Below, piece by piece: positions 54,368 through 63,867 of a stretch of 64,000 bases of DNA; within the stretch, counting starts at the first letter, position 1, and each line of letters starts with the position of its first letter. The notes under the pieces were generated by a model. It ran no database searches. It was not told the origin of the DNA and was given only the letters and a program-made list of their open reading frames with translations. The position numbers and the translations under genes are program-made. The DNA comes from Nonomuraea angiospora (lineage in GTDB: Bacteria > Actinomycetota > Actinomycetes > Streptosporangiales > Streptosporangiaceae): positions 11,160,001 to 11,224,000 of the forward strand of contig NZ_JADBEK010000001.1 of the NCBI RefSeq assembly GCF_014873145.1. The letters run 5' to 3'.

Positions 54368-54610
54368 TCATGGGCTCGCCTCGTCCGCGTACCGGCTCAG
54401 GCGGCGCGCGGCCGTCTCCAGGTCGGCGGCGGCCGCCGCGCAGGCGGCGAGGTGAGCGGTCACCGACGCGTGCAGCCAAGACGGTGCCCCGCCGCCGGAC
54501 TCCAGCCCTGCCTCGATCGCGCGCAGGCGCTCGGCGCAGGCGGCGAGGGCGCGGGCGTCCGAACGCAGGACCTCGGCGTGGGCGATGATCGCGGCGATCT
54601 CGTCGGACAT
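54368..54610 (-). CDS. Small WXG100-like helical protein
   Basis: The 80-residue protein starts MSDEIAAIIAHAEVLRSDAR and contains PSWLHASVTAHLAACAAAAA and DLETAARRLSRYA. Two amphipathic helices around a Trp-containing turn resemble WXG100/ESX-type partners. Such proteins often pair with a large exported protein encoded next to them. It starts ten bases after the lipase-fusion stop and is the last gene of the P450/peroxidase operon. The assignment is by pattern only. Confidence 0.6.
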   Translation of the reverse strand: MSDEIAAIIAHAEVLRSDARALAACAERLRAIEAGLESGGGAPSWLHASVTAHLAACAAAAADLETAARRLSRYADEASP

Positions 54611-54620
54611 GGCTCCTCCG

Positions 54621-56759
54621 TCAGAGCGGCGGCACCGGGACGGCGGCGTCCCGGAGCGTCTGGCGGGTGGGGGCCGACAGGCACAGCAGCGGGCGGGCGC
54701 CGTCGAGCCCCAGCTCGCGGAGCCGGTCGGCCAGCGGGTGAGCCGACCCCGGCTCGACGACCAGCCGCAGCGACGGCGCCGCGTGCAGCCGGGCCCGCCC
54801 GCGGGTCCGTACGCAGGACCGCAGCACGGCACCGGCCTCGCCGGTGTAGCCGACCAGCCCGGGATCGCTCAGGGGCAGTCCCGGGCCGAGCCGCCCGCGC
54901 AGGGTGAGGATCTGGCCGGCGCCGACGTGGGCGGCCCGGGCGCCGAGCCGGAGCTCCAGGGGCGTCAGGTACGTCTCGCCGCCCCACAGCCGCGGGCCGA
55001 GGGCGCGAACGATCGTGGTGTCGACCGCGGAGCCGACGAGGAAGCTGCCGGAACGGCGCACGTCCGCCGCCCGCAGCAGGTCGGGCCAGACGGGACAACG
55101 AGGGCCTCGACGCGACGGGCCGGGCACGACGACGCCGACATGCAGCTCCCCGTATCCGCCCGCACTGGTGTGCCGGTTCGAGGCGGCGTGCACGGCGACC
55201 AGCGCACGGCCCGCCACCCGCACGGCGGGGCCGAGCCCCGTGCCCTCCAGCAGGCGGGCCGCCACCGCCGGGTGCGCGGTGAAGTACACCGTGAGCGCGC
55301 TGCCGTCGCGGCACCTGATCGGGAGTTCGGCGGTTCCCCCTGGACCGTCCACGGTGCGGGTGGGCACGGTCAGGAAGGGGAACTCCTCCGGGTCGGGCGG
55401 GCGGTCGAACAGCAGGTACGCCTGGGAACGCACGACCTGCCCCCGGAAGGGCGTGAGCCGCTCGTCGATGACCTCGCGAGCCTCGGGCAGATCGTCGGTG
55501 AGGTTGGCGAGGTAGTGCTCGATGCTGTGGCAGAGCGGGAACAGGTGGGTGGAATCGCCGTAATTGACCACGTACCAGTCGGGGTGCAGGTCGAAGCAGG
55601 TGCCGGCGCCCTGCCCGTCGAGGGTGGGGATGATGTCGTGCTGGTTGGTGACGCTGGCCACCCAGGTGCGCGGGTCGGCGGGGCGTTTGAAGTCGACGGG
55701 CGAGCCGACGGCGACGGCGTGGGTGACCGTGTGACGGGCGCAGAACTCGGGGTCCTGCGCCAGGTTCATGATCGCCGCCCCGCCCGCGCTGTGCCCGACG
55801 AGCGCCAGCTCGGCGCCCGGAGGCGGCCCGTAGTCGGCGACGGCCTCGGCCAGGGCGCGGCTGTAGGGGCTGCTCGCCAGGACGGCGCTGCTGAACGCGC
55901 CGAGCAGGTCCTGGGGCGACTGGCCGTCGGGACGTCCCACCCGCATGCCCGGCGCCTGAAGGACGTGGCGGATCACACCGTCGGGTCCTTCGACGCTCTG
56001 GATGAGGGCCCGCCCGGTGGTGCCGATCGTGCTGATGTTGCCCAGGAAGCCGAGCAGCGACCCCCGCGAGCACAGCCGGGCCGACTCGGCCGCGCTCAGC
56101 TCGATCCGGCGCGCGGCGCCTTCCCCGGTGTCGAGGACGGCGATGGCCCGGTTGCTCATGCCGGTGATCGGATCGGCGGTGGCGAAGCCCTTTCCCGTGG
56201 CGATGAGCCAGGCGGCGGCGTCGTTGAGCGGGTTCTCGTCCAGCAGCGCGCGCAGCGCGAGCACCTCGCCGAAGACCGGGGCGAGCTGGCTGAGCGCGCG
56301 CACCGCGCCACGGTCCTTGAGCAGGGCGCGCAGGGCCCGGACGGCCTCCAGGTCGCGGTCGGCGGCGGCCGCGTCGATGAGCCGGGCGAGCATGGGGTCG
56401 TCGGTCAGCTCGGGGTGCGCGAGCGCCACGGCTGCCACGCGCAGGCGCAGCGACGTGGCCAGCACGCGTACGGCCAGGCTCTCGGCCCCCAGCATGGCGC
56501 CGGCCTTGGCGGCCACGCCGGCCAGCCGGCCGCCGGTGAACGCGCACCCGAGGCCCTGACCGTTCGTCGTGGCCCGTAGCAGCGCGCGGTAGGCGGGCCG
56601 GGCCGCCGAGGGCGCGTGCGGCAGGGCGCGCAGCAGCGCGTCGTCGGTGAGCGCGGCCGTGGCGTGCGCCGCCGCGCCCTGGATCGTGAGCGCGATGTCC
56701 ACCAGCTCGCGGGCCGCGGCGCGCAGCGGCCCGGCGGCCGGGTCCTTGTCCCCGGTCAT
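54621..56759 (-). CDS. Lipase-type hydrolase fused to an acetoacetate-decarboxylase-like domain
   Basis: The protein has 712 residues. The first 200 are helical and alanine-rich. The middle has a lipase elbow in LALVGHSAGGAAIMNLAQ (Ser324) with a later Asp (NQHDIIPTLDG) and His (GDSTHLFPLCHSIEHYL), as in class 3-like lipases. From about residue 450 the sequence follows the acetoacetate-decarboxylase fold: NRHTSAGGYGELHVGVVVPG, SFLVGSAVDTTIVRALGPRL followed by WGGETYL, and PLADRLRELGL. The catalytic Lys of true decarboxylases (in the WGxPK position) is replaced, so this domain may not decarboxylate. The ATG overlaps the peroxidase stop as ATGA. I infer that it releases or processes an acyl substrate for the operon. 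Confidence 0.7.
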   Translation of the reverse strand: MTGDKDPAAGPLRAAARELVDIALTIQGAAAHATAALTDDALLRALPHAPSAARPAYRALLRATTNGQGLGCAFTGGRLAGVAAKAGAMLGAESLAVRVLATSLRLRVAAVALAHPELTDDPMLARLIDAAAADRDLEAVRALRALLKDRGAVRALSQLAPVFGEVLALRALLDENPLNDAAAWLIATGKGFATADPITGMSNRAIAVLDTGEGAARRIELSAAESARLCSRGSLLGFLGNISTIGTTGRALIQSVEGPDGVIRHVLQAPGMRVGRPDGQSPQDLLGAFSSAVLASSPYSRALAEAVADYGPPPGAELALVGHSAGGAAIMNLAQDPEFCARHTVTHAVAVGSPVDFKRPADPRTWVASVTNQHDIIPTLDGQGAGTCFDLHPDWYVVNYGDSTHLFPLCHSIEHYLANLTDDLPEAREVIDERLTPFRGQVVRSQAYLLFDRPPDPEEFPFLTVPTRTVDGPGGTAELPIRCRDGSALTVYFTAHPAVAARLLEGTGLGPAVRVAGRALVAVHAASNRHTSAGGYGELHVGVVVPGPSRRGPRCPVWPDLLRAADVRRSGSFLVGSAVDTTIVRALGPRLWGGETYLTPLELRLGARAAHVGAGQILTLRGRLGPGLPLSDPGLVGYTGEAGAVLRSCVRTRGRARLHAAPSLRLVVEPGSAHPLADRLRELGLDGARPLLCLSAPTRQTLRDAAVPVPPL

Positions 56760-58342
56760 GGCCGGGGCCGCCGGGACATGCTGACGAGGCGGGGGGCCGG
56801 GTCCTCCGGGGTGTTGCGGCGCAGCACGTCCGACAGCGTGCGCGTGGCCGCGATGACCCGCGCGCCCGCCGGGGAGAACGTGGCGGCGTTGAAGATCCGC
56901 GGTGCCAGCAGCGGGTTGGTGAGCGCCTGGGAGAAGGCGTCGATAGCGATGATCTTGGTCAGCAGCGGAGGCAGGATCGCGGCGGGGGATCCGGGCTCCT
57001 CGGCGAACAGCCCGACGTACAGGTCGACGTCGTCCACGTCGCGGTAGAGCTCGCGCAGCGCGCCGCTGACCCGCCGGTCGCCGGAGATCTGCTCGAAGGC
57101 ACGCACTCGTGGGAAGCGGCAGTGCTCGCGGTAGCTGTTGTACGGGGCCAGGTCGAGGGCCCGGGAGTCGGCGATGCTGGACACGTCGATCTCGCGCAGG
57201 ACGGGGTCGGTGTTGAACAGGCTGATGCGGCCGGCCCGCTGGCGGGAGGCCTCCTCGAACAGCCGCCCGAGGCCGGGGCCGGGGATCAGCGCGCTGCCGA
57301 AGAAGGTGTGGGCCATCGGCAGGTCGCGCCCGCCCACCGACAGGTGGGACGGGATCAGGCTGTGCCAGCGGTAGACGAGGTTGAACTCCACCGAGGCCCA
57401 GTTCTGCCGGTGCCAGGGCGCGTGGTCCAGCAGCGCCGACAGCCGCGGGTCCAGGGTGAACCGGAAGTGGTAGGGGGTGATGTGGTTGATGTACTCCTCG
57501 ACGACCAGCTTGATCAGCAGCACGATGAGGATGTTGCGGGCCGTCTGGAACAGCCGCTCGTCGTCCCAGTGCGGGTGTTCCCGTGCGAGCAGCCGCGCCA
57601 CCCTGTTGTGCTCGCGCAGGAACAGCACCGTGAGCATGGTGAAGCCGATCTGGCCGTTGCCCCGGTCGCTGCCGGTGGCGAACAGCGTGTCGCGCTGCGC
57701 GTCGGAGAGCCGGTCGAAGCGGACGACGCTCAGCGGGGCGAACTCCGGCTTGATCTTGCCGTTCTCGCACAGGTGGGGCGGGAACTCGCCGCCGTTGATG
57801 AGCTGGCTCTTGAGCAGCCCGCCGTCGAAGGCGCGCAGCGCGGCCGTCGCCGCCTCGTGGAGGCCGTACACCTGGTTCAGGTCGATGTGATGGTTGGAGC
57901 TGTTCTTGCGCGGGTCGCGCGGGACGTTGGTGTCGCCGCGCAGGAAACCGTCGGTGAACCATTGGGCGAAGTACGCGAAGAGCACCGTGGAGCGCGGGCA
58001 GGGGATCATGGACTCGCCGCGGGTGAACAGGTCGGCGGCGCTCTCGGGAGTGGGACGGTGGTCCTCGGCGACGGGGATCGGGGGCAGGTGCCTGCCGCTG
58101 TAGGTGCGGTCGGTCAAGGAGGCCCACGAGGTGTAGTCGGCCATGGTGCTCAACGGCTCGGGGCGCGGCGGCATCTCGCGGATCGCATGGTCGATCAGCG
58201 TGGCGTTGATCCGGCGCCGCACCGGCCGGCTCCTCTGCACGAGGTCCCAGAACGGCCGGCCGTGGGTCAGGGCCAGGAACCTGAGCCGGTTGGCGAGGCC
58301 GTCCGTGGCGATGCTGCGCGCGCGTGCTCGGCTCCCCGCCAT
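56756..58342 (-). CDS. Cyclooxygenase-like haem peroxidase (putative fatty-acid dioxygenase)
   Basis: This 528-residue member of the animal haem peroxidase superfamily is closest in pattern to prostaglandin H synthases. LFAYFAQWFTDGFLRGD, HHIDLNQVYGLHEAATAALR, GFTMLTVLFLREHNRVARLL, VEEYINHITPYHFR and VEFNLVYRWHSLIP match COX blocks in order. Tyr324 and His327 (in VYRWH) correspond to COX Tyr385 and proximal haem ligand His388; Ser471 in DAFSQALTNPL corresponds to Ser530; Gln127 to Gln203. The COX distal His207 position is Asp131. There is no signal peptide, EGF or membrane-binding module. It should oxygenate a fatty acid via a tyrosyl radical. The gene lies two bases after the P450 stop; GGAAGG sets the ATG. 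Confidence 0.87.
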   Translation of the reverse strand: MAGSRARARSIATDGLANRLRFLALTHGRPFWDLVQRSRPVRRRINATLIDHAIREMPPRPEPLSTMADYTSWASLTDRTYSGRHLPPIPVAEDHRPTPESAADLFTRGESMIPCPRSTVLFAYFAQWFTDGFLRGDTNVPRDPRKNSSNHHIDLNQVYGLHEAATAALRAFDGGLLKSQLINGGEFPPHLCENGKIKPEFAPLSVVRFDRLSDAQRDTLFATGSDRGNGQIGFTMLTVLFLREHNRVARLLAREHPHWDDERLFQTARNILIVLLIKLVVEEYINHITPYHFRFTLDPRLSALLDHAPWHRQNWASVEFNLVYRWHSLIPSHLSVGGRDLPMAHTFFGSALIPGPGLGRLFEEASRQRAGRISLFNTDPVLREIDVSSIADSRALDLAPYNSYREHCRFPRVRAFEQISGDRRVSGALRELYRDVDDVDLYVGLFAEEPGSPAAILPPLLTKIIAIDAFSQALTNPLLAPRIFNAATFSPAGARVIAATRTLSDVLRRNTPEDPAPRLVSMSRRPRP

Positions 58343-58344
58343 CG

Positions 58345-59679
58345 TCAGCCTTCCCGCCCGGCGCCGCCGGGCCTTTCGGTGGTGACCCGCTCTTCGGTGC
58401 CGAGCCCCAGGGTGAACGTGTCGGGGAAGATCCCGAGTGTCCGCTCGACGCGGCCCGCCGGTGGCGGGAGCGGACGCACGCCGGGACGCAGCAGCAGGCG
58501 GCGTACGGTCTCGGCGATCACCACGTCGGCCACGTGCACGCCGAGGCAGGCGTGATGACCGGAGCCGAAGAACAGCTGATGGTGGCGAGGCCGGTCGAGG
58601 CGGAACTCCTCGGGCTCCGGCACCACGGCCGCGTCGAACATGGCGGAGGCCGGCGCCGCGAGCACGAACGTGCCCGCGGGGATGACCGTGCTGCGCGGGG
58701 TGCCGCCGGCCAGGACGTGGTCGCGCTCGCACAGCCGGGGAAGCAGCTTGAAGAACGGGCTGAACCGCAGCGCCTCCCAGACGTACGGATCGAACCGTCC
58801 GGGGTCCGCGGCGACGGCCGCGGCCTCCGCGAGCACCCGCGGGCGCAGCAGGAGCTGCTCGACCGCCTCGGCCATGGCCCCCGGCGCGCTCTCCACGAAG
58901 CCCAGCGGCAGCCCGGCCATGTTGATCACGATGCGGTCGTCGGTCACGCCGGCCCCATCGGGCAGGCGGGAGCTGACGAGGCGGGAAAAGACGTCGTCGG
59001 GGAGATCGCGGCCGGCCCGCAGCGTGGCCCGGTGCTCGGCGAGGCGGTCTCGCAGGTATCCGACCAGCTCGGTGCCCGCTCTGACGGACGCGGCCTGGAT
59101 CTGCGGATCCCCGAGGAAGTTGGCGAAGCCGTCGGCGACGATGGCCCGGGTCCACCGGCCCAGGGTCTGCGGATCGGGGCCGGGAACGCCGAAATAGCGC
59201 GCGCACACGCCGAGGGCGACCGGGCGGAACAGCCCGTTGACCGCTTCGAGGCGCCCTTCGGGCCAGGCGGCGTCGAGCAGCTCGTCGGCGAGGCGGCCGG
59301 TCAGCTCGCGCACGTCGGCCGCGTCCCGCGGGTCGAGCATGAGCTGCATCAGGCCCTTTTCCCGCCAGTTCATCGGCGTGGCGTCCCTGCCCAGCATGAA
59401 CGGGGCGCCCAGCGCGGCGTCGAGGCGCGGACCGAAGGCGCGTACCGAGAAGACCTGCTCGTGGGAGAGCACCTCGATGACGTCGGCGAAGCGGGTCACG
59501 ACCGTGAAGGCGGGCGTGACGAAGACGGGGCGCCGCTCGCGCAGCTCGGCGAACAGGCTCCGCCAGTCGGTACGCATCCACTCCCGGACCAGGCCGAACG
59601 CGGACATCGGGTCCCTGGCCAGCGCCTCGTCATATCTCTCCAGATGGCCGCCCGTGGTCGCCTGGTCGACAGCACCCAT
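58345..59679 (-). CDS. Cytochrome P450 coupled to the COX-like peroxidase
   Basis: The 444-residue protein has the haem-thiolate motif FFGSGHHACLG (Cys378), the ExxR pair in WEALRFSPFF and the following FRLDRP segment. The I-helix reads INMAGLPLGFVESAPGAMAE; where most monooxygenases have an acid-Thr pair for oxygen activation, this has Glu-Ser followed by Ala-Pro. This suggests use of a hydroperoxide substrate or atypical chemistry. I chose the ATG at 59679 because GGAAGG lies seven bases upstream; the frame extends to 59733. It is the first gene of the four-gene operon and is separated from the peroxidase gene by two bases. Confidence 0.9.
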   Translation of the reverse strand: MGAVDQATTGGHLERYDEALARDPMSAFGLVREWMRTDWRSLFAELRERRPVFVTPAFTVVTRFADVIEVLSHEQVFSVRAFGPRLDAALGAPFMLGRDATPMNWREKGLMQLMLDPRDAADVRELTGRLADELLDAAWPEGRLEAVNGLFRPVALGVCARYFGVPGPDPQTLGRWTRAIVADGFANFLGDPQIQAASVRAGTELVGYLRDRLAEHRATLRAGRDLPDDVFSRLVSSRLPDGAGVTDDRIVINMAGLPLGFVESAPGAMAEAVEQLLLRPRVLAEAAAVAADPGRFDPYVWEALRFSPFFKLLPRLCERDHVLAGGTPRSTVIPAGTFVLAAPASAMFDAAVVPEPEEFRLDRPRHHQLFFGSGHHACLGVHVADVVIAETVRRLLLRPGVRPLPPPAGRVERTLGIFPDTFTLGLGTEERVTTERPGGAGREG

Positions 59680-59897
59680 TCCGTGGCCCTTCCGCCCGAT
59701 GCCGGAGCGCACAACGATGATCACGTTGCGCAATCACAATCTAGGGATGCGTCACACCTTTCCTTCATGACAACCGAGTGCATTGTTTTGCTTCCACACG
59801 GTAATTACTCCGTCACTGTCAGGACATTGCCGCAGTCCATGGGCGTGGCCGTTGAATAAGGAGCCTGATCGTCCCGCACCGCTTCATGGGAGGAACC
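59680..59897. other. Divergent promoter region between the P450 operon and the desaturase
   Basis: This 218-bp gap is more AT-rich than the genes around it, as expected for two divergent promoters. It contains the perfect 8-bp palindrome GTAATTAC at 59801-59808 within a longer imperfect repeat, a possible operator shared by both directions. I cannot place -35 and -10 elements with confidence. Confidence 0.4.
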
Positions 59898-60833
59898 GTG
59901 ACCTCACCCATGCCGCAGCCGGCCACGGCGGAGACGGTGACGGTCACCACCGGCCGCCGCACCGCCTATCTGGTCGTCCTGGTCGTCCTGCCCGTGTTGC
60001 TGCTGGCCCTCGCGGTGCCGGCCGCGTGGGGCTGGGGCATCGGCCCCCGCGACCTGGTCATCGCGGTCGCGATGTACCTGGTGAGCATCTTCGGGATCGC
60101 CATCGGCTACCACCGCCTCTTCACCCACCGCGCCTTCAAGGCCAACCGGGCGCTTCGGATCGCGCTCATGCTGGCCGGCGGCATGGCCGTCGAGGGCCCC
60201 CTCACGCTGTGGGCCGCCGAGCACCGCCGCCACCACAAGTACGCCGACCGCGACGGCGACCCGCACTCGCCGTGGCGCTACGGCGACAGCGGCCTGGCCC
60301 TGCTACGCGGCATGCTGCACGCCCACATCGGCTGGTTCTACACGGCCCACCACCGCTCCAGCCGCCGGCACTGGGTGCCGGACCTGCTGGCCGACCCGGA
60401 CGTGCGCCGCTTCGACGCCGCCTACCCGGCGGTCGTCCTCATGTCGTTCGCGCTCCCGGCCGCCGCCGGCGGGCTCTGGTCGATGTCGTGGCCGGGCGCG
60501 TGGAGCGCGCTCCTGTGGGGCGGTCTGGTCCGCTACGCCGTGGTGCACCACGTCACCTGGTCGGTGAACTCGGTCGCCCACACCTTCGGCGACCGCCCGT
60601 TCCGCACCAGGGACCGTTCGTCCAACGTGTGGTGGGTGGCGATGCTGACGCTCGGCGAAGGCTGGCACAACTGGCACCACGTGGAGCCGACCTGCGCCCG
60701 GCACGGCGTGCTCAGGGGCCAGTTCGACCCCAGCGCGCGGCTGATCCGCTGGTTCGAGCGGGCGGGCTGGGCCCACGGCGTACGCTGGCCGAGCCCCGAC
60801 CGTCTGACGACCCACCGCACCGACCGGCGATGA
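59898..60833 (+). CDS. Membrane acyl-CoA desaturase (delta-9 type)
   Basis: The 311-residue protein has four membrane segments and the three histidine boxes of integral diiron desaturases: HRLFTHR (from about residue 72), HRRHHKYAD and HNWHH. These hold the diiron centre that inserts a cis double bond in an acyl chain at the membrane. The GTG at 59898 is chosen because GGAGGAA lies just before it, inside the longer frame from 59886. It is divergent from the P450/COX-like operon. An unsaturated acyl chain is what a COX-like oxygenase needs, so a role in the same pathway is plausible. Confidence 0.92.
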   Translation: MTSPMPQPATAETVTVTTGRRTAYLVVLVVLPVLLLALAVPAAWGWGIGPRDLVIAVAMYLVSIFGIAIGYHRLFTHRAFKANRALRIALMLAGGMAVEGPLTLWAAEHRRHHKYADRDGDPHSPWRYGDSGLALLRGMLHAHIGWFYTAHHRSSRRHWVPDLLADPDVRRFDAAYPAVVLMSFALPAAAGGLWSMSWPGAWSALLWGGLVRYAVVHHVTWSVNSVAHTFGDRPFRTRDRSSNVWWVAMLTLGEGWHNWHHVEPTCARHGVLRGQFDPSARLIRWFERAGWAHGVRWPSPDRLTTHRTDRR

Positions 60834-60842
60834 GACGTCTTG

Positions 60843-60855
60843 CCTCTCTCAGAGG
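60843..60855. terminator. Small hairpin between convergent genes
   Basis: CCTCT-CTC-AGAGG forms a 5-bp stem with a 3-base loop, ten bases after the desaturase stop and overlapping the end of the opposite gene. It may act as a weak bidirectional terminator. Confidence 0.4.
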
Positions 60856-61622
60856 AAGACGCGAGCGATGTCGAGCCACTTCTGCGCGTCCTCGCCGACC
60901 GCCGTGAGGTCGGTCTGGGCTCGGGACCTGCGGTGGGTGACTCGGAGGCAGAAGTCGAGGGCACTGCCCCGAACCCGTTGCCCGGCGTCTTCCGGGCCCC
61001 ATGCCCAGGTCTGACCCTCGGGGCCGGTCAGCTCGACCCGGAACGGCTCTGCCGGAACAGGCAGTTGGGCAGCGTAGAACGACAGCTCTCGCCCTACCAC
61101 TCCCAGCGAGGCCACATGCTGGAGCCGGCTCGTCGGGCGGCGTGAGACGCCCAGCGCATCGAAGACGTCCTGCCCGTGAGCCCACGTCTCCATCAGCCGA
61201 AGCGGCACCATGAGCGCTGCGGTCAACTGCGAGCCGTACCACGGAAAGCCGTGCTCCAGCGGAAGGTCACGTAGCTCCGCCGCGACCTCGGCTCGGCCGG
61301 CGCGCCACTGTTCCAGCAGCTCCGAGCGCGGTCTGGCCGCTCCCTCGGCGGCGTCGAGATCGGCGTACCGGCTGCCTTCGGCTTCCGCCCGCTTCAGCAC
61401 GGCGTCGAACGTCTCCGGGGTCCGTATGGCGATGAGCACGTTCGCATCGGCCGAAGCGAGATGAGCGATCTGGTGGGCGATCGTCCACCCCTCCGCCGGT
61501 GTGGGCTTCGACCAGTCGGCGTGCGCTGATACCAGGGCGTCGAGCTCGTCCCCTTCGGCCACCAGGTCGGGCAGAGCGCGGTCGAGCTCTATGCGGGACA
61601 GGTCGAGGCCGTAGTTCAACAT
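60849..61622 (-). CDS. TIGR03084-type DinB/mycothiol-maleylpyruvate isomerase-fold protein
   Basis: The 257-residue protein starts MLNYGLDLSRIELDRALPDL and has the first metal-binding part in PAEGWTIAHQIAHLASADAN, a further His in LMETWAHGQDVFDALG, and a C-terminal SCP2-like region (PEGQTWAWGPEDAGQRVRGS). This layout fits the actinobacterial TIGR03084 group of the DinB/MDMPI superfamily, often mycothiol-linked. The ATG at 61622 has AAGG upstream, within the longer frame from a GTG at 61637. The activity is unknown. It is convergent with the desaturase gene. Confidence 0.82.
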   Translation of the reverse strand: MLNYGLDLSRIELDRALPDLVAEGDELDALVSAHADWSKPTPAEGWTIAHQIAHLASADANVLIAIRTPETFDAVLKRAEAEGSRYADLDAAEGAARPRSELLEQWRAGRAEVAAELRDLPLEHGFPWYGSQLTAALMVPLRLMETWAHGQDVFDALGVSRRPTSRLQHVASLGVVGRELSFYAAQLPVPAEPFRVELTGPEGQTWAWGPEDAGQRVRGSALDFCLRVTHRRSRAQTDLTAVGEDAQKWLDIARVFL

Positions 61623-61697
61623 CGGTGTCACCTTCACGGATTGACGGCAAAGTTGATCTAGTGTGGTCAGCCTATCCGCGGTTGATCGCGGTGATCC

Positions 61698-62312
61698 TCA
61701 CGCCCGGGGCGCGACTCCGCTGCTGAGGGCGTCGAACAGGCGCTCCAGGCGGGCGCGGTGGTCGTCCGCGACGGTGTCGGCCGGTTCTCCGGCGACCAGG
61801 CGCCGGGCGGTCTCCACCAGCACCGCGGTGTAGCCGGCGATGAAGAAGGCGGCGAGCAGCGGGGCGTCGCCGTCGAAGGCCGGGTCGTGTTCGAGCTCGC
61901 CGGCGAGGGTCTGCTGGAGGTCGGAGGCGATCTCCCTGGCGCGGGAGACCAGCGCGGGCGAGGCCGCGACGGTCCGGAAGAAGGGGACGGACCCGTCCTT
62001 GAGGCCGGACAGGGCGTGCCGCTCCTCGAGGAGACGGAACGCCATGTCGCGCAGGGACCGGAGCACTCCGGCGTCCGGGGCGCGGTCGCGTACCGCTGAG
62101 CGCAGGAGCCCGACGGCGTCGACCTCGCGGTCCAGCAGCAGGTCCTCCTTGCGCGGGAAGTGCTTGAAGACCGTCACGGCCGAGACCCCGGCCTCCCGCG
62201 CGACCTCGGTGACCGTGACCGTGTCGAATCCGCGCTCGAGGAACAGCCGGGTCGCGACCTCCGAGATCTTCGCACGCGTCTGCGGGCCGCCTCGCGGTCC
62301 GGTCCTGGGCAT
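61698..62312 (-). CDS. TetR-family regulator of the divergent efflux gene
   Basis: The 204-residue protein has an N-terminal TetR helix-turn-helix (ISEVATRLFLERGFDTVTVT and EVAREAGVSAVTVFKHFPRK) and a helical C-terminal ligand domain. It is divergent from a 14-segment MFS efflux gene with a 100-bp gap that contains an inverted repeat, the usual layout for a TetR protein that represses a drug exporter. The ligand is unknown. Confidence 0.9.
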   Translation of the reverse strand: MPRTGPRGGPQTRAKISEVATRLFLERGFDTVTVTEVAREAGVSAVTVFKHFPRKEDLLLDREVDAVGLLRSAVRDRAPDAGVLRSLRDMAFRLLEERHALSGLKDGSVPFFRTVAASPALVSRAREIASDLQQTLAGELEHDPAFDGDAPLLAAFFIAGYTAVLVETARRLVAGEPADTVADDHRARLERLFDALSSGVAPRA

Positions 62313-62334
62313 CCCGGCCTCACTTTCTTGTGTA

Positions 62335-62346
62335 ACTTAATTTAGT
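62335..62346. promoter_or_regulatory. Inverted repeat between tetR and the efflux gene
   Basis: ACTTAATTTAGT is a 10-of-12 palindrome in an AT-rich patch of the divergent gap, 22 bases upstream of the tetR start. It is the best candidate for the TetR operator there. Confidence 0.5.
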
Positions 62347-62412
62347 CGCATAACCTAGTGGCATGTCCTTGCAACAGACCACTGTCATTGTCGCCACAGC
62401 GGGGATCGCGAC

Positions 62413-63867
62413 GTGAAGAAAGCCCTACGGCCTGGTCGCACTCCCCGCTCGCTACGGGAGGCGTGGGTCGCGTTGGCGGGGCTGTCGACGGTGTTCCTCT
62501 TCGAGATGCTGGACAACTCGATCCTGAACGTCGCGCTGCCCGTGATCGGACGTGAGCTGCACGCCTCCACGACCGCGTTGCAGTGGGTGACGGGCGCCTA
62601 CGCGGTCGTGTTCGGCGGGTTGATGCTCGCCTTCGGCGCGATCGCCGACCGGTTCGGCCGACGGCGGATCATGCTGATCGGCCTGGTCCTGCTCGGCGTG
62701 GCGAGCCTGGCGACCGCCGTGGTCACCACCGCCGGGCAGCTGATCGCCGTCCGGGCGGCGATGGGGGTCGCCGCGGCGATGACGACCCCGGGATCGATGG
62801 CGCTGGCGTTCCGGCTGTTCGACGAGGACGGCCTGCGCGTGCGCGCGCTGACCCTCATCTCGACCGTCGGCCTGGTCGGGCTCGCGATCGGCCCGACGAC
62901 GGGCGGCCTGGTGCTGGCGATCGTGCCCTGGCAGGTCCTGCTGCTGCTGAACGTGCCGGTCGCCGGGCTCGCGTTCCTCGGCGTGCGTTCCGGCGTCGCC
63001 GCCGACGACCCGGACGGCCTCCACCGCGACCCCCTCGACGTTCCCGGGATGCTGCTGGGCACGGCGACGATCGTGCTCGCGCTCTTCGCGCCGACGCTGT
63101 TCGTGGACGAGGGCGCCGGCTCGTGGGCGCCCTGGGCGGTCACCGCCGCGGCCGCCGTGACGGCGACCTGCTTCGTCCTGCGCGAGCGCCTGGCCCGCCA
63201 TCCGCTGCTCGACCTGAAGCTCCTCGCCCTCCCTCTGGTCTCCAGCGGCCTGGCCCACAAGGCCGCCGCCGGGCTGGCGACCGCCGGGCTCGGTTACCTG
63301 GTGACGCTGCAGTTGCAGCTCGACTGGGGCTGGACGCCCGCGCTGGCCGCCGTCGGGATGCTGCCGCAGGTCGTCGTCCTCATCGCGGGCAGCACGTTCG
63401 TCAACCCGTTCGTGCAGCGCGTCGGCCTGGACCGGGCGGCCTGGAGCAGCGCCGCGGCGGTCGTGTCCGGCCTCGCCGTCTACGGCCTGCTCGGCCGGTT
63501 CGGCTACCTGTGGGTCGCGGTCGCGCTCGTGCTCGTGGCGGCCGGGATGCGCGTGGTCGGCGTCGTCGCCGGGCTCAACGTGGTTCGCGGCCTGCCCGCG
63601 AACCGGACCACCATGGGCACCGCGCTCGTCGACACCGCCACCGAGGTCACCTCCGGCACCGGCATCGCCATCACCGGCACGATCCTCGCCACCCTGTTCA
63701 CCGGCGACCTCGCCACCTCCCACTGGAGCCCGCAGCAGACCGGCGAGTTCCACCAGGCCGTCACCACCGCGGGCCTCACCCTCACCGTCGTCGCGGCGGC
63801 CCTCGTCGGCTGGGGGATCGCCCGCACCCGGCACTTCGCAGAGCCGAGCAGCCCTTCGTTCCCTTGA
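62413..63867 (+). CDS. MFS drug-efflux transporter (DHA2 family, 14 membrane segments)
   Basis: The 484-residue protein has about fourteen membrane segments. The first contains FLFEMLDNSILNVALPVIGR, the DHA2 motif with a membrane-embedded Asp. LMLAFGAIADRFGRRRIMLI is motif A, and the motif C-like LVGLAIGPTTGGLVLAIVPW marks it as an antiporter. It should export drugs or a secondary metabolite with proton exchange. The GTG start has only a weak purine tract. The divergent TetR protein is its likely repressor. Confidence 0.92.
   Translation: MKKALRPGRTPRSLREAWVALAGLSTVFLFEMLDNSILNVALPVIGRELHASTTALQWVTGAYAVVFGGLMLAFGAIADRFGRRRIMLIGLVLLGVASLATAVVTTAGQLIAVRAAMGVAAAMTTPGSMALAFRLFDEDGLRVRALTLISTVGLVGLAIGPTTGGLVLAIVPWQVLLLLNVPVAGLAFLGVRSGVAADDPDGLHRDPLDVPGMLLGTATIVLALFAPTLFVDEGAGSWAPWAVTAAAAVTATCFVLRERLARHPLLDLKLLALPLVSSGLAHKAAAGLATAGLGYLVTLQLQLDWGWTPALAAVGMLPQVVVLIAGSTFVNPFVQRVGLDRAAWSSAAAVVSGLAVYGLLGRFGYLWVAVALVLVAAGMRVVGVVAGLNVVRGLPANRTTMGTALVDTATEVTSGTGIAITGTILATLFTGDLATSHWSPQQTGEFHQAVTTAGLTLTVVAAALVGWGIARTRHFAEPSSPSFP

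Follow-up and report, generated by a model that had tools for sequence, protein, structure and literature searches.

We propose that five adjacent genes of Nonomuraea angiospora probably form a self-contained pathway in which cis-9 monounsaturated fatty acids of the cell itself would be turned into oxylipins. On our best reading, the operon is an unfused bacterial counterpart of the fungal dioxygenase-P450 enzymes that comes with its own substrate supply. The genes lie in a 64,000-nucleotide stretch of contig NZ_JADBEK010000001.1 (here, the window), whose coordinates are used throughout.

Layout and conservation of the gene set

Four genes follow one another on the minus strand in the order P450, peroxidase, fusion, and small protein, with intergenic gaps of 2, −4, and 10 bases, and a desaturase gene diverges from them:

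54368-54610, minus strand: small protein, 80 aa, predicted two-helix hairpin
54621-56759, minus strand: fusion, 712 aa, with a helical N-terminus, a lipase-like domain, and an acetoacetate-decarboxylase-fold domain
54624..55355, minus strand: acetoacetate-decarboxylase-fold domain of the fusion, residues 469-712, without lysine
55443..56123, minus strand: lipase-like (class 3/phospholipase A1-like) domain of the fusion, residues 213-439
56756-58342, minus strand: COX-family heme dioxygenase (the peroxidase), 528 aa, predicted fatty-acid 10S-dioxygenase type
58345-59679, minus strand: P450, 444 aa from ATG (an upstream TTG start would give 462)
59680..59885, no strand: divergent intergenic region shared by the desaturase and the operon, containing CTAGATTGTG
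59886-60833, plus strand: membrane fatty-acid desaturase, stearoyl-CoA-desaturase (SCD) type

These coordinates confirm the gene placement, the packing, and the divergent desaturase described in a first-pass annotation of the sequence. Its names for the P450, the COX-like oxygenase, and the desaturase also hold, as all three have Pfam matches above the cut-off (PF00067 at 42.6 bits, PF03098 at 175.4 bits, and PF00487 at 76.1 bits, respectively). The 10-mer CTAGATTGTG is partly kept, being present in 21 of 46 aligned intergenic regions of relatives. A scan for promoters and terminators returned no promoter-like site and one terminator-like site, fewer than in shuffled sequence.

The first-pass annotation had staked its reading on the four genes being kept together in relatives, and a neighborhood search bore this out. 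Across 72 loci with a relative of the peroxidase, drawn from Nonomuraea and related actinomycetes, both tblastn and a profile search recovered the P450 in 61 loci and the desaturase in 58. The hydrolase part of the fusion was found in 56 and 57 loci, its decarboxylase-fold part in 48 and 50, and the small protein in 37 and 53 (tblastn and profile search, respectively). The proposed set of oxylipin-pathway parts is thus retained across the loci; the 11 loci that carry none of the partner genes are all distant. The desaturase adjoins the P450 in 58 of the 72 loci, and in two Acrocarpospora loci (L057 and L063) it lies on the strand of the P450 and overlaps it by 4 bases. Separately, in a Frankia locus (L059), a patatin phospholipase is encoded two genes upstream of the dioxygenase.

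In a sample of 200 genomes of the order, the dioxygenase and the P450 occur together in 36 genomes, the dioxygenase alone in 1, the P450 alone in none, and neither in 163 (phi = 0.983). The corresponding counts for the dioxygenase and the fusion are 35 with both, 2 with the dioxygenase only, 1 with the fusion only, and 162 with neither. Where both the dioxygenase and the P450 are present, they adjoin in 33 of 36 genomes. This co-occurrence pattern points to inheritance of the genes as a unit, gained or lost together. Within the genus Nonomuraea, only 12 of the 26 sampled genomes carry the dioxygenase, and for this reason we suggest that the compound made would be a specialized metabolite or signal. 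A desaturase, a lipase-like protein, and oxidative enzymes would also fit membrane remodeling, and the genome, where P450s account for 70 match segments and desaturases for 5 matches, has a rich lipid and xenobiotic chemistry. Instead of making a signal or specialized product, the genes could form a lipid-damage or lipid-turnover system, with unsaturated membrane lipids (or fatty acids from outside) as the material to be removed or remodeled. We consider this improbable, because the patchy presence of the genes and their joint gain or loss look more like specialized metabolism.

The dioxygenase and its likely substrate

The PDB structures nearest to the dioxygenase are COX-1 and COX-2 (E = 1.7e−66, versus 2.1e−24 for the next family). 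Such proximity would suit a true bacterial cyclooxygenase pathway, in which a polyunsaturated acid would give a prostaglandin-type endoperoxide that the P450 isomerizes in the manner of prostacyclin or thromboxane synthase; the Asn or Ser in the I-helix of the P450s (see below) likewise recalls Asn287 of prostacyclin synthase (PGIS; PMC13049297). The active-site residues argue against it. In a comparison of 70 dioxygenases (that of the window and those longer than 480 aa from 69 of the 72 loci), COX residues Tyr385, Tyr348, Trp387, and His388 are kept in all sequences. The distal His207 is replaced by Asp and Ser530 by Ala in 70 of 70, and Gly526 has given way to Ile (62 sequences) or Val (8 sequences), so that none of these three COX residues is kept in any member. 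Other replacements are Val349 to Ile (64 of 70), Ser353 to Thr (67 of 70), and Val291 to Arg (65 of 70). The column of COX Arg120 holds Val (40), Ile (26), Ala (2), Cys (1), and Ser (1) and is off Arg in all 70 members, although the helix is loosely aligned here and Arg55 lies one residue away. The key residues of the window's enzyme are Tyr324, His327, the distal Asp131, Arg227, Ile465, and Ala469. With His207, Ser530, and Gly526 of COX replaced, the peroxidase is no prostaglandin synthase, and the "prostaglandin-like" label of the first-pass annotation has to be dropped.

The sole desaturase of the set also speaks against a cyclooxygenase. Its nearest PDB structure is acyl-CoA desaturase 1 (4ymk, E = 1.3e−29), and this sequence relation, together with three histidine boxes (HRLFTHR, HRRHH, and HNWHH) that are largely kept in 58 sequences, places it in the SCD family, whose enzymes introduce one double bond. 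To our knowledge, arachidonate is not expected in actinomycetes. Overall, a cyclooxygenase pathway appears highly improbable.

The residues found instead are those of the Nostoc linoleate 10S-dioxygenase (10S-DOX), for which PMC13049297 prints FtdsF at the distal site, Ile306, Thr310, Ile483, and Ala487, and gives oleic and linoleic acids as substrates. Compared by these printed residues, the dioxygenase shares the distal Asp, the equivalents of Ile306/Thr310 and Ile483/Ala487, and DAFxQA; the Arg in the Val291 column also agrees with the dioxygenases as given there. The COX-like oxygenase of the first-pass annotation therefore stands, with COX as its nearest PDB relative and active-site residues like those of a proven fatty-acid dioxygenase. 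Because the COX residues are replaced by those of the Nostoc enzyme, one cis-9 double bond, as would come from the SCD-like neighbor, should suffice, and oleate-type monoenes, not arachidonate, are the predicted fitting substrate.

The P450, the fusion, and the small protein

The P450 has an intact heme loop (FGSGHHACLG) and EXXR motif (EALR), and its I-helix reads GFVES, with Ser in place of Thr. Among 60 actinobacterial members (that of the window and 59 of the 61 locus P450s, two short sequences having been dropped), this position is Ser in 35, Asn in 25, and Thr in none; the same residue comparison covered 58 desaturases, 56 fusions, and 38 small proteins. In contrast, 28 of the 29 P450s that served as controls, drawn from elsewhere in the genome (those in the 30 best-scoring of its 70 P450 match segments), have Thr, as do all three rhizobial relatives. 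Asn occupies the position in fungal LDS/EAS, in PGIS, and in plant AOS, as described in PMC13049297. CYP74 is absent from the 60 PDB matches listed for the P450, and the listed relatives include many monooxygenases, such as CYP142. A regular-expression search for ferredoxins near the P450 gave matches in 29 of 61 loci, which look like out-of-frame chance.

The gene beside the dioxygenase also varies. In 12 plasmid records that hold a relative, the neighbor is a P450 in three, all of them rhizobial plasmids, a catalase-family protein or relative in seven (two of which, from Ruegeria, were assigned by similarity), and neither in two. The hydroperoxide lyase of Nostoc is a catalase-related protein (PMC13049297), and a catalase-type protein of this hydroperoxide-cleaving kind appears to take the place of the P450 beside these seven plasmid dioxygenases. 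A Pfam scan of 10 neighbors of distant and plasmid dioxygenases identified a RoxA-like cytochrome c upstream in Paracoccus and no family for two rhizobial upstream proteins. In a tree of the dioxygenase (37 hand-picked rows comprising the window, 27 of the 72 loci, 8 of the 12 plasmid relatives, and COX-1; a quick method, with long-branch warnings), the dioxygenases paired with a P450 fall into an actinobacterial group and a rhizobial group apart from it, a pattern with which both ancestry and transfer of the pair are compatible.

These data bear on whether the P450 acts on the dioxygenase product. It might be an ordinary redox-driven fatty-acid hydroxylase that draws on the same substrate pool and does not act in sequence with the dioxygenase, as its intact heme loop and EXXR motif, its monooxygenase relatives in the PDB, and the Thr of the rhizobial members would allow. 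We think this unlikely, given that all 60 actinobacterial members have Ser or Asn for Thr, and given the catalase-type neighbor in 7 of 12 plasmid records, and the absence of a redox partner among the five genes.

The fusion has no Pfam match above the cut-off (Lipase_3 reaches 14.6 bits against 22, E = 0.03), and its two domains were recognized by fold in an AF2 model (pLDDT 78.7, pTM 0.51); the aligned rows (VIA-align 2) span model residues 213-439 and 470-711. The lipase-like domain has an alpha/beta hydrolase fold and a GxSxG motif (GHSxGG) with Ser324, Asp375, and His411, all invariant, which places it with class 3 lipases and phospholipases A1, and plant phospholipase A1 is among its best fold matches. 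The C-terminal domain has the acetoacetate decarboxylase fold. In 19 of the 23 members counted (the window and 22 of the 48 loci), the window's included, this domain has no lysine at all, and the other four have one or two. Decarboxylase chemistry, which in acetoacetate decarboxylase uses a Schiff-base lysine, is rejected for these 19. Of the "lipase/decarboxylase-like fusion" first described, the lipase-like domain and the decarboxylase fold are retained and the decarboxylase function is not.

The small protein, called "WXG100-like" in the first-pass annotation, resembles that family in predicted shape: helices 3-39 and 44-78 form a hairpin in the AF2 model (pLDDT 95.9), and WXG100/ESAT-6 proteins are helical hairpins of about 100 residues. 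Its family profile does not agree. The window's protein has no Pfam match above the cut-off, and WXG100, with nine matches elsewhere in the genome, is not among the Pfam matches of the 36 members scanned; membership is rejected on this profile. T7SS_signal is matched by 12 of the 36 (best E = 3.6e−5; 0.044 for the window's own). The turn reads P-x-W-L or P-x-W-F in place of a W-x-G motif, and Trp45 is invariant (36 sequences). Foldseek returned no match to the hairpin at E < 0.001, the first being PE5-PPE4-EspG3 (E = 0.37), along with ESCRT-III, COG4, and Rop-like hairpins, and a role in type VII export is therefore a guess.

A proposed pathway and its relation to known systems

From sequence, fold, and gene company, we propose the following steps. 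The SCD-type desaturase would introduce a cis double bond into acyl chains, with C9 as the likely position, and the lipase-like domain of the fusion would free the fatty acid from lipid. A tyrosyl radical at Tyr324 of the dioxygenase would take an allylic hydrogen and add O2, likely giving the 10(S)-hydroperoxide, as the Nostoc enzyme does with oleate and linoleate. The hydroperoxide would then pass to the adjacent P450, whose rearrangement of it to a diol, an epoxy alcohol, or an allene oxide would probably need no redox partner. For the lysine-free decarboxylase-fold domain, binding or further shaping of the product is the probable role, and the probable partner of the small hairpin protein is the fusion. 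More speculatively, and with little expectation that it is correct in full, we conjecture a complete hormone cassette: a free-standing bacterial version of the fungal-type DOX-P450 that isomerizes hydroperoxides, with the decarboxylase-fold domain as a new lysine-free enzyme (e.g., a cyclase or hydrolase) acting on the P450 product, like allene oxide cyclase in jasmonate synthesis, and with a secreted oxylipin as its product, which would have a role in regulating development or in competition with fungi.

Bacterial oxylipins are made from oleate by the ODS quorum-sensing system of Pseudomonas aeruginosa through a two-step oxygenase route; this system is likewise bacterial and oleate based, and its enzymes are from another protein family. 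The plant jasmonate route consists of a DAD1/DSEL-type lipase, a lipoxygenase, allene oxide synthase (CYP74), and allene oxide cyclase. It differs from the set described here in using a lipoxygenase where we find a COX-type dioxygenase, and in its CYP74, the family missing from the listed P450 matches.

A further relative is the Nostoc punctiforme pair of linoleate 10S-dioxygenase and catalase-related hydroperoxide lyase described in PMC13049297. There too the dioxygenase is a COX-family heme enzyme of comparable length, in which Asp stands for the distal His and the substrate-site residues are the same, and the hydroperoxide goes on to another heme enzyme. In the operon described here, that other enzyme is a P450; the desaturase and the lipase/decarboxylase-fold fusion are additional parts, and COX Tyr504, which is Phe in Nostoc, is retained.

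COX-family dioxygenases work with P450s in fungi and animals (PMC13049297), and our search of the open-licence literature found no report of such a pair in bacteria. The first-pass annotation's comparison with fungal enzymes was the right one, and the pair also occurs on rhizobial plasmids. Fungal Ppo/linoleate diol synthases (LDS) are DOX-CYP fusions that, like the genes here, combine a dioxygenase with a P450; their P450s share the HxC heme loop, and several have Asn or another non-Thr residue in the I-helix (PMC13049297, for the members described there). In contrast to the fusions, the genes here are separate, with the P450 first, a gap of 2 bases, and different stops in the loci that hold both, and desaturase and lipase-like genes are attached. 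The distal His, replaced by Asp here, is retained in CcDOX1/2 according to PMC9579011. Because the P450 part of the fungal fusions might go back to bacteria, as a 2026 review suggests (PMC13049297), the cassette bears on the origin of these fusions. With a desaturase and a lipase-like gene of its own, such a conserved cassette would equip actinomycetes with a complete pathway to lipid mediators, and its unfused enzymes would allow the passage of the hydroperoxide from dioxygenase to P450 to be studied.

Gene set and its conservation

The genome carrying the window is a single contig of 13.09 Mb, and its closest protein relatives belong to Nonomuraea. The genes are as follows:

58345-59679, minus strand, P450 (Pfam P450 confirmed)
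56756-58342, minus strand, COX-family peroxidase (Pfam An_peroxidase confirmed)
54621-56759, minus strand, fusion of a lipase-like hydrolase and an acetoacetate-decarboxylase-fold part, 712 residues
54368-54610, minus strand, small protein, 80 residues
59886-60833, divergent, upstream of the minus-strand genes, membrane desaturase (Pfam FA_desaturase confirmed)

The tight packing of the four minus-strand genes (gaps of 2, -4, and 10 bases) and the divergent upstream desaturase, both noted in the first-pass annotation, are borne out by the gene coordinates. The divergent intergenic region (59680-59885) keeps an element, CTAGATTGTG, which is possibly part of a common promoter; the 10-mer CACAATCTAG occurs in 21 of 46 such regions.

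Scanning GTDB genomes with the window peroxidase gave 72 loci (one strain contributes two contigs, L023 and L070), and a search for conserved neighborhoods found the partners kept around the peroxidase. By tblastn and profile searches, respectively, relatives are present at 61 and 61 loci for the P450, 58 and 58 for the desaturase, 56 and 57 for the hydrolase part, 48 and 50 for the decarboxylase-fold part, and 37 and 53 for the small protein. The decarboxylase-fold part shares an open frame with the hydrolase in 47 of 48 loci. Eleven loci have no partner; their peroxidases, 40-63% identical to the window's, come from Frankia, Solirubrobacteraceae, Acidimicrobiia, Thermobaculum, Chloroflexia, Acidobacteria, Verrucomicrobia, and Betaproteobacteria, and some sit on short contigs. 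Contig ends explain some other gaps (L030, L041, L044, L047, and L062). The desaturase is genuinely absent beside the P450 in L015 and L054, and the Sinosporangium loci (L032 and L067) have no hydrolase at that place. In Nonomuraea dietziae (L024), the P450 and hydrolase frames are broken, through either decay or assembly error, and the dioxygenase frame is whole. In one Frankia locus, a patatin-like phospholipase (L059:6625-7866) lies upstream of the dioxygenase at a distance of two genes, a further case of a lipase close to a COX relative in bacteria.

Among 200 genomes drawn from the order Streptosporangiales, the dioxygenase is present in 37 (including 12 of the 26 from Nonomuraea), and the P450 and the fusion in 36 each. 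Thirty-six genomes have both dioxygenase and P450, one has the dioxygenase only, none the P450 only, and 163 have neither (phi = 0.983); the two genes adjoin in 33 of the 36. For dioxygenase and fusion, the counts are 35 with both, two dioxygenase-only, one fusion-only (at a contig end), and 162 with neither (phi = 0.950). The fusion of G122 and the dioxygenase of G182 lie elsewhere in these genomes. In three genomes (G194, G127, and G077), an extra open frame of 275-289 codons is similar to the helical N-terminal part of the fusion alone, with 50-52% identity over about residues 10-220.

The desaturase, which resembles acyl-CoA desaturase 1 (PDB 4ymk, E = 1.3e-29), belongs to a family nearly universal in the order (196 of 200 genomes) and is therefore tied to the cassette by position only. 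In Acrocarpospora it is reversed, and in L057 and L063 it shares a 4-base overlap with the P450; the tie is therefore more than divergent neighborship. In the window, the stretch at 60849-63867 holds genes for a mycothiol-isomerase-type protein, a TetR regulator, and an MFS transporter, the last divergent. Among the 72 loci, relatives of these genes occur at only 1, 4, and 8, respectively, and we therefore place them outside the cassette.

Identity of the dioxygenase

The best PDB relatives of the peroxidase are COX-1 and COX-2 (E = 1.7e-66); peroxinectin (2.1e-24), lactoperoxidase, and plant alpha-dioxygenase follow at a wide margin. In 70 bacterial sequences aligned to COX-1, the catalytic Tyr385, Tyr348, Trp387, and His388 are invariant. 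The "prostaglandin-like" pathway of the first-pass annotation was not supported: distal His207 is Asp and Ser530 is Ala in all 70 sequences, and Gly526 is replaced by Ile in 62 and by Val in 8. Also replaced are Val349 (Ile in 64), Ser353 (Thr in 67), and Val291 (Arg in 65); the Arg120 column, in a loosely aligned region, holds Val, Ile, or other residues.

According to a 2026 review (PMC13049297), the linoleate 10S-dioxygenase of Nostoc punctiforme has the distal-site motif FtdsF, which accounts for the Asp, together with Ile306, Thr310, Ile483, and Ala487; Arg at the Val291 position is noted in dioxygenases. The window protein matches each of these residues but, unlike the Nostoc enzyme, retains Tyr504 (kept in 68 of 70). 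We accordingly dropped the prostaglandin synthase identity. The Nostoc enzyme makes 10S-hydroperoxides from both oleic and linoleic acid (PMC13049297), so a fatty-acid 10S-dioxygenase is the fitting reading of the window sequence, and one cis-9 double bond should be enough in the substrate of the predicted enzyme.

A second PF03098 heme peroxidase of this genome (G000:C1:4164439-4165959, 342.6 bits, inside a 990-codon open frame) is only distantly like the dioxygenase.

The P450 and plasmid-borne relatives

The P450 has an intact heme loop and EXXR. At the I-helix site that is Thr in monooxygenases, 35 of 60 cassette P450s have Ser and 25 have Asn; Thr is present in 28 of 29 other P450s examined in the window's genome. 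According to the review, fungal diol and epoxy-alcohol synthases have Asn there, as do plant allene oxide synthase and prostacyclin synthase, and this Asn is also called dispensable (PMC13049297).

Among 12 plasmid records with a dioxygenase relative, a P450 lies directly upstream in three, all rhizobial, Rhizobium gallicum included (L115, L117, and L118, on Sinorhizobium and Rhizobium plasmids, one typed conjugative). These P450s share 36.5-37.2% identity with the one in the window, against at most 23.9% with 29 others compared, so by sequence they look like one family; they have the I-helix Thr, counter to a simple Ser/Asn rule. A "catalase family protein" adjoins the dioxygenase in four Paracoccus yeei records and one Methylobacterium record (the single one scanned matched Pfam Catalase only below cut-off), and two Ruegeria records have its relative there. 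In the two Acaryochloris records, neither a P450 nor a catalase-type protein is beside the dioxygenase. The Nostoc hydroperoxide lyase is a catalase-related protein (PMC13049297). Together with this lyase, the alternation of catalase-type protein and P450 argues that the P450 would stand where a hydroperoxide-converting enzyme is expected. The gene company says more about this role than the I-helix residue.

The Paracoccus yeei plasmids (L116, L122, L123, and L124) carry a row of hypothetical protein, catalase-family protein, and COX-type dioxygenase, a candidate for another bacterial oxylipin operon; the first protein matches RoxA-like cytochrome c in L116.

Proposed pathway

The genes, their families and predicted folds, the conserved residues and gene order, and the joint presence are observed. 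We consider it moderately probable that the five-gene cassette encodes an oxylipin pathway, in which the desaturase would desaturate at C9, the fusion would hydrolyze lipid, the dioxygenase would form the 10(S)-hydroperoxide, and the P450 would rearrange it without a redox partner. The lysine-free decarboxylase-fold domain of the fusion may bind or convert the product, whose role may be signaling or specialized. This reading is weakest at the reaction of the P450 and at the biological role. A literature search of open-licence papers found no bacterial dioxygenase-P450 gene pair. The parts are of known kinds: the Nostoc 10S-dioxygenase, fungal dioxygenase-P450 fusions, and class 3 lipases.
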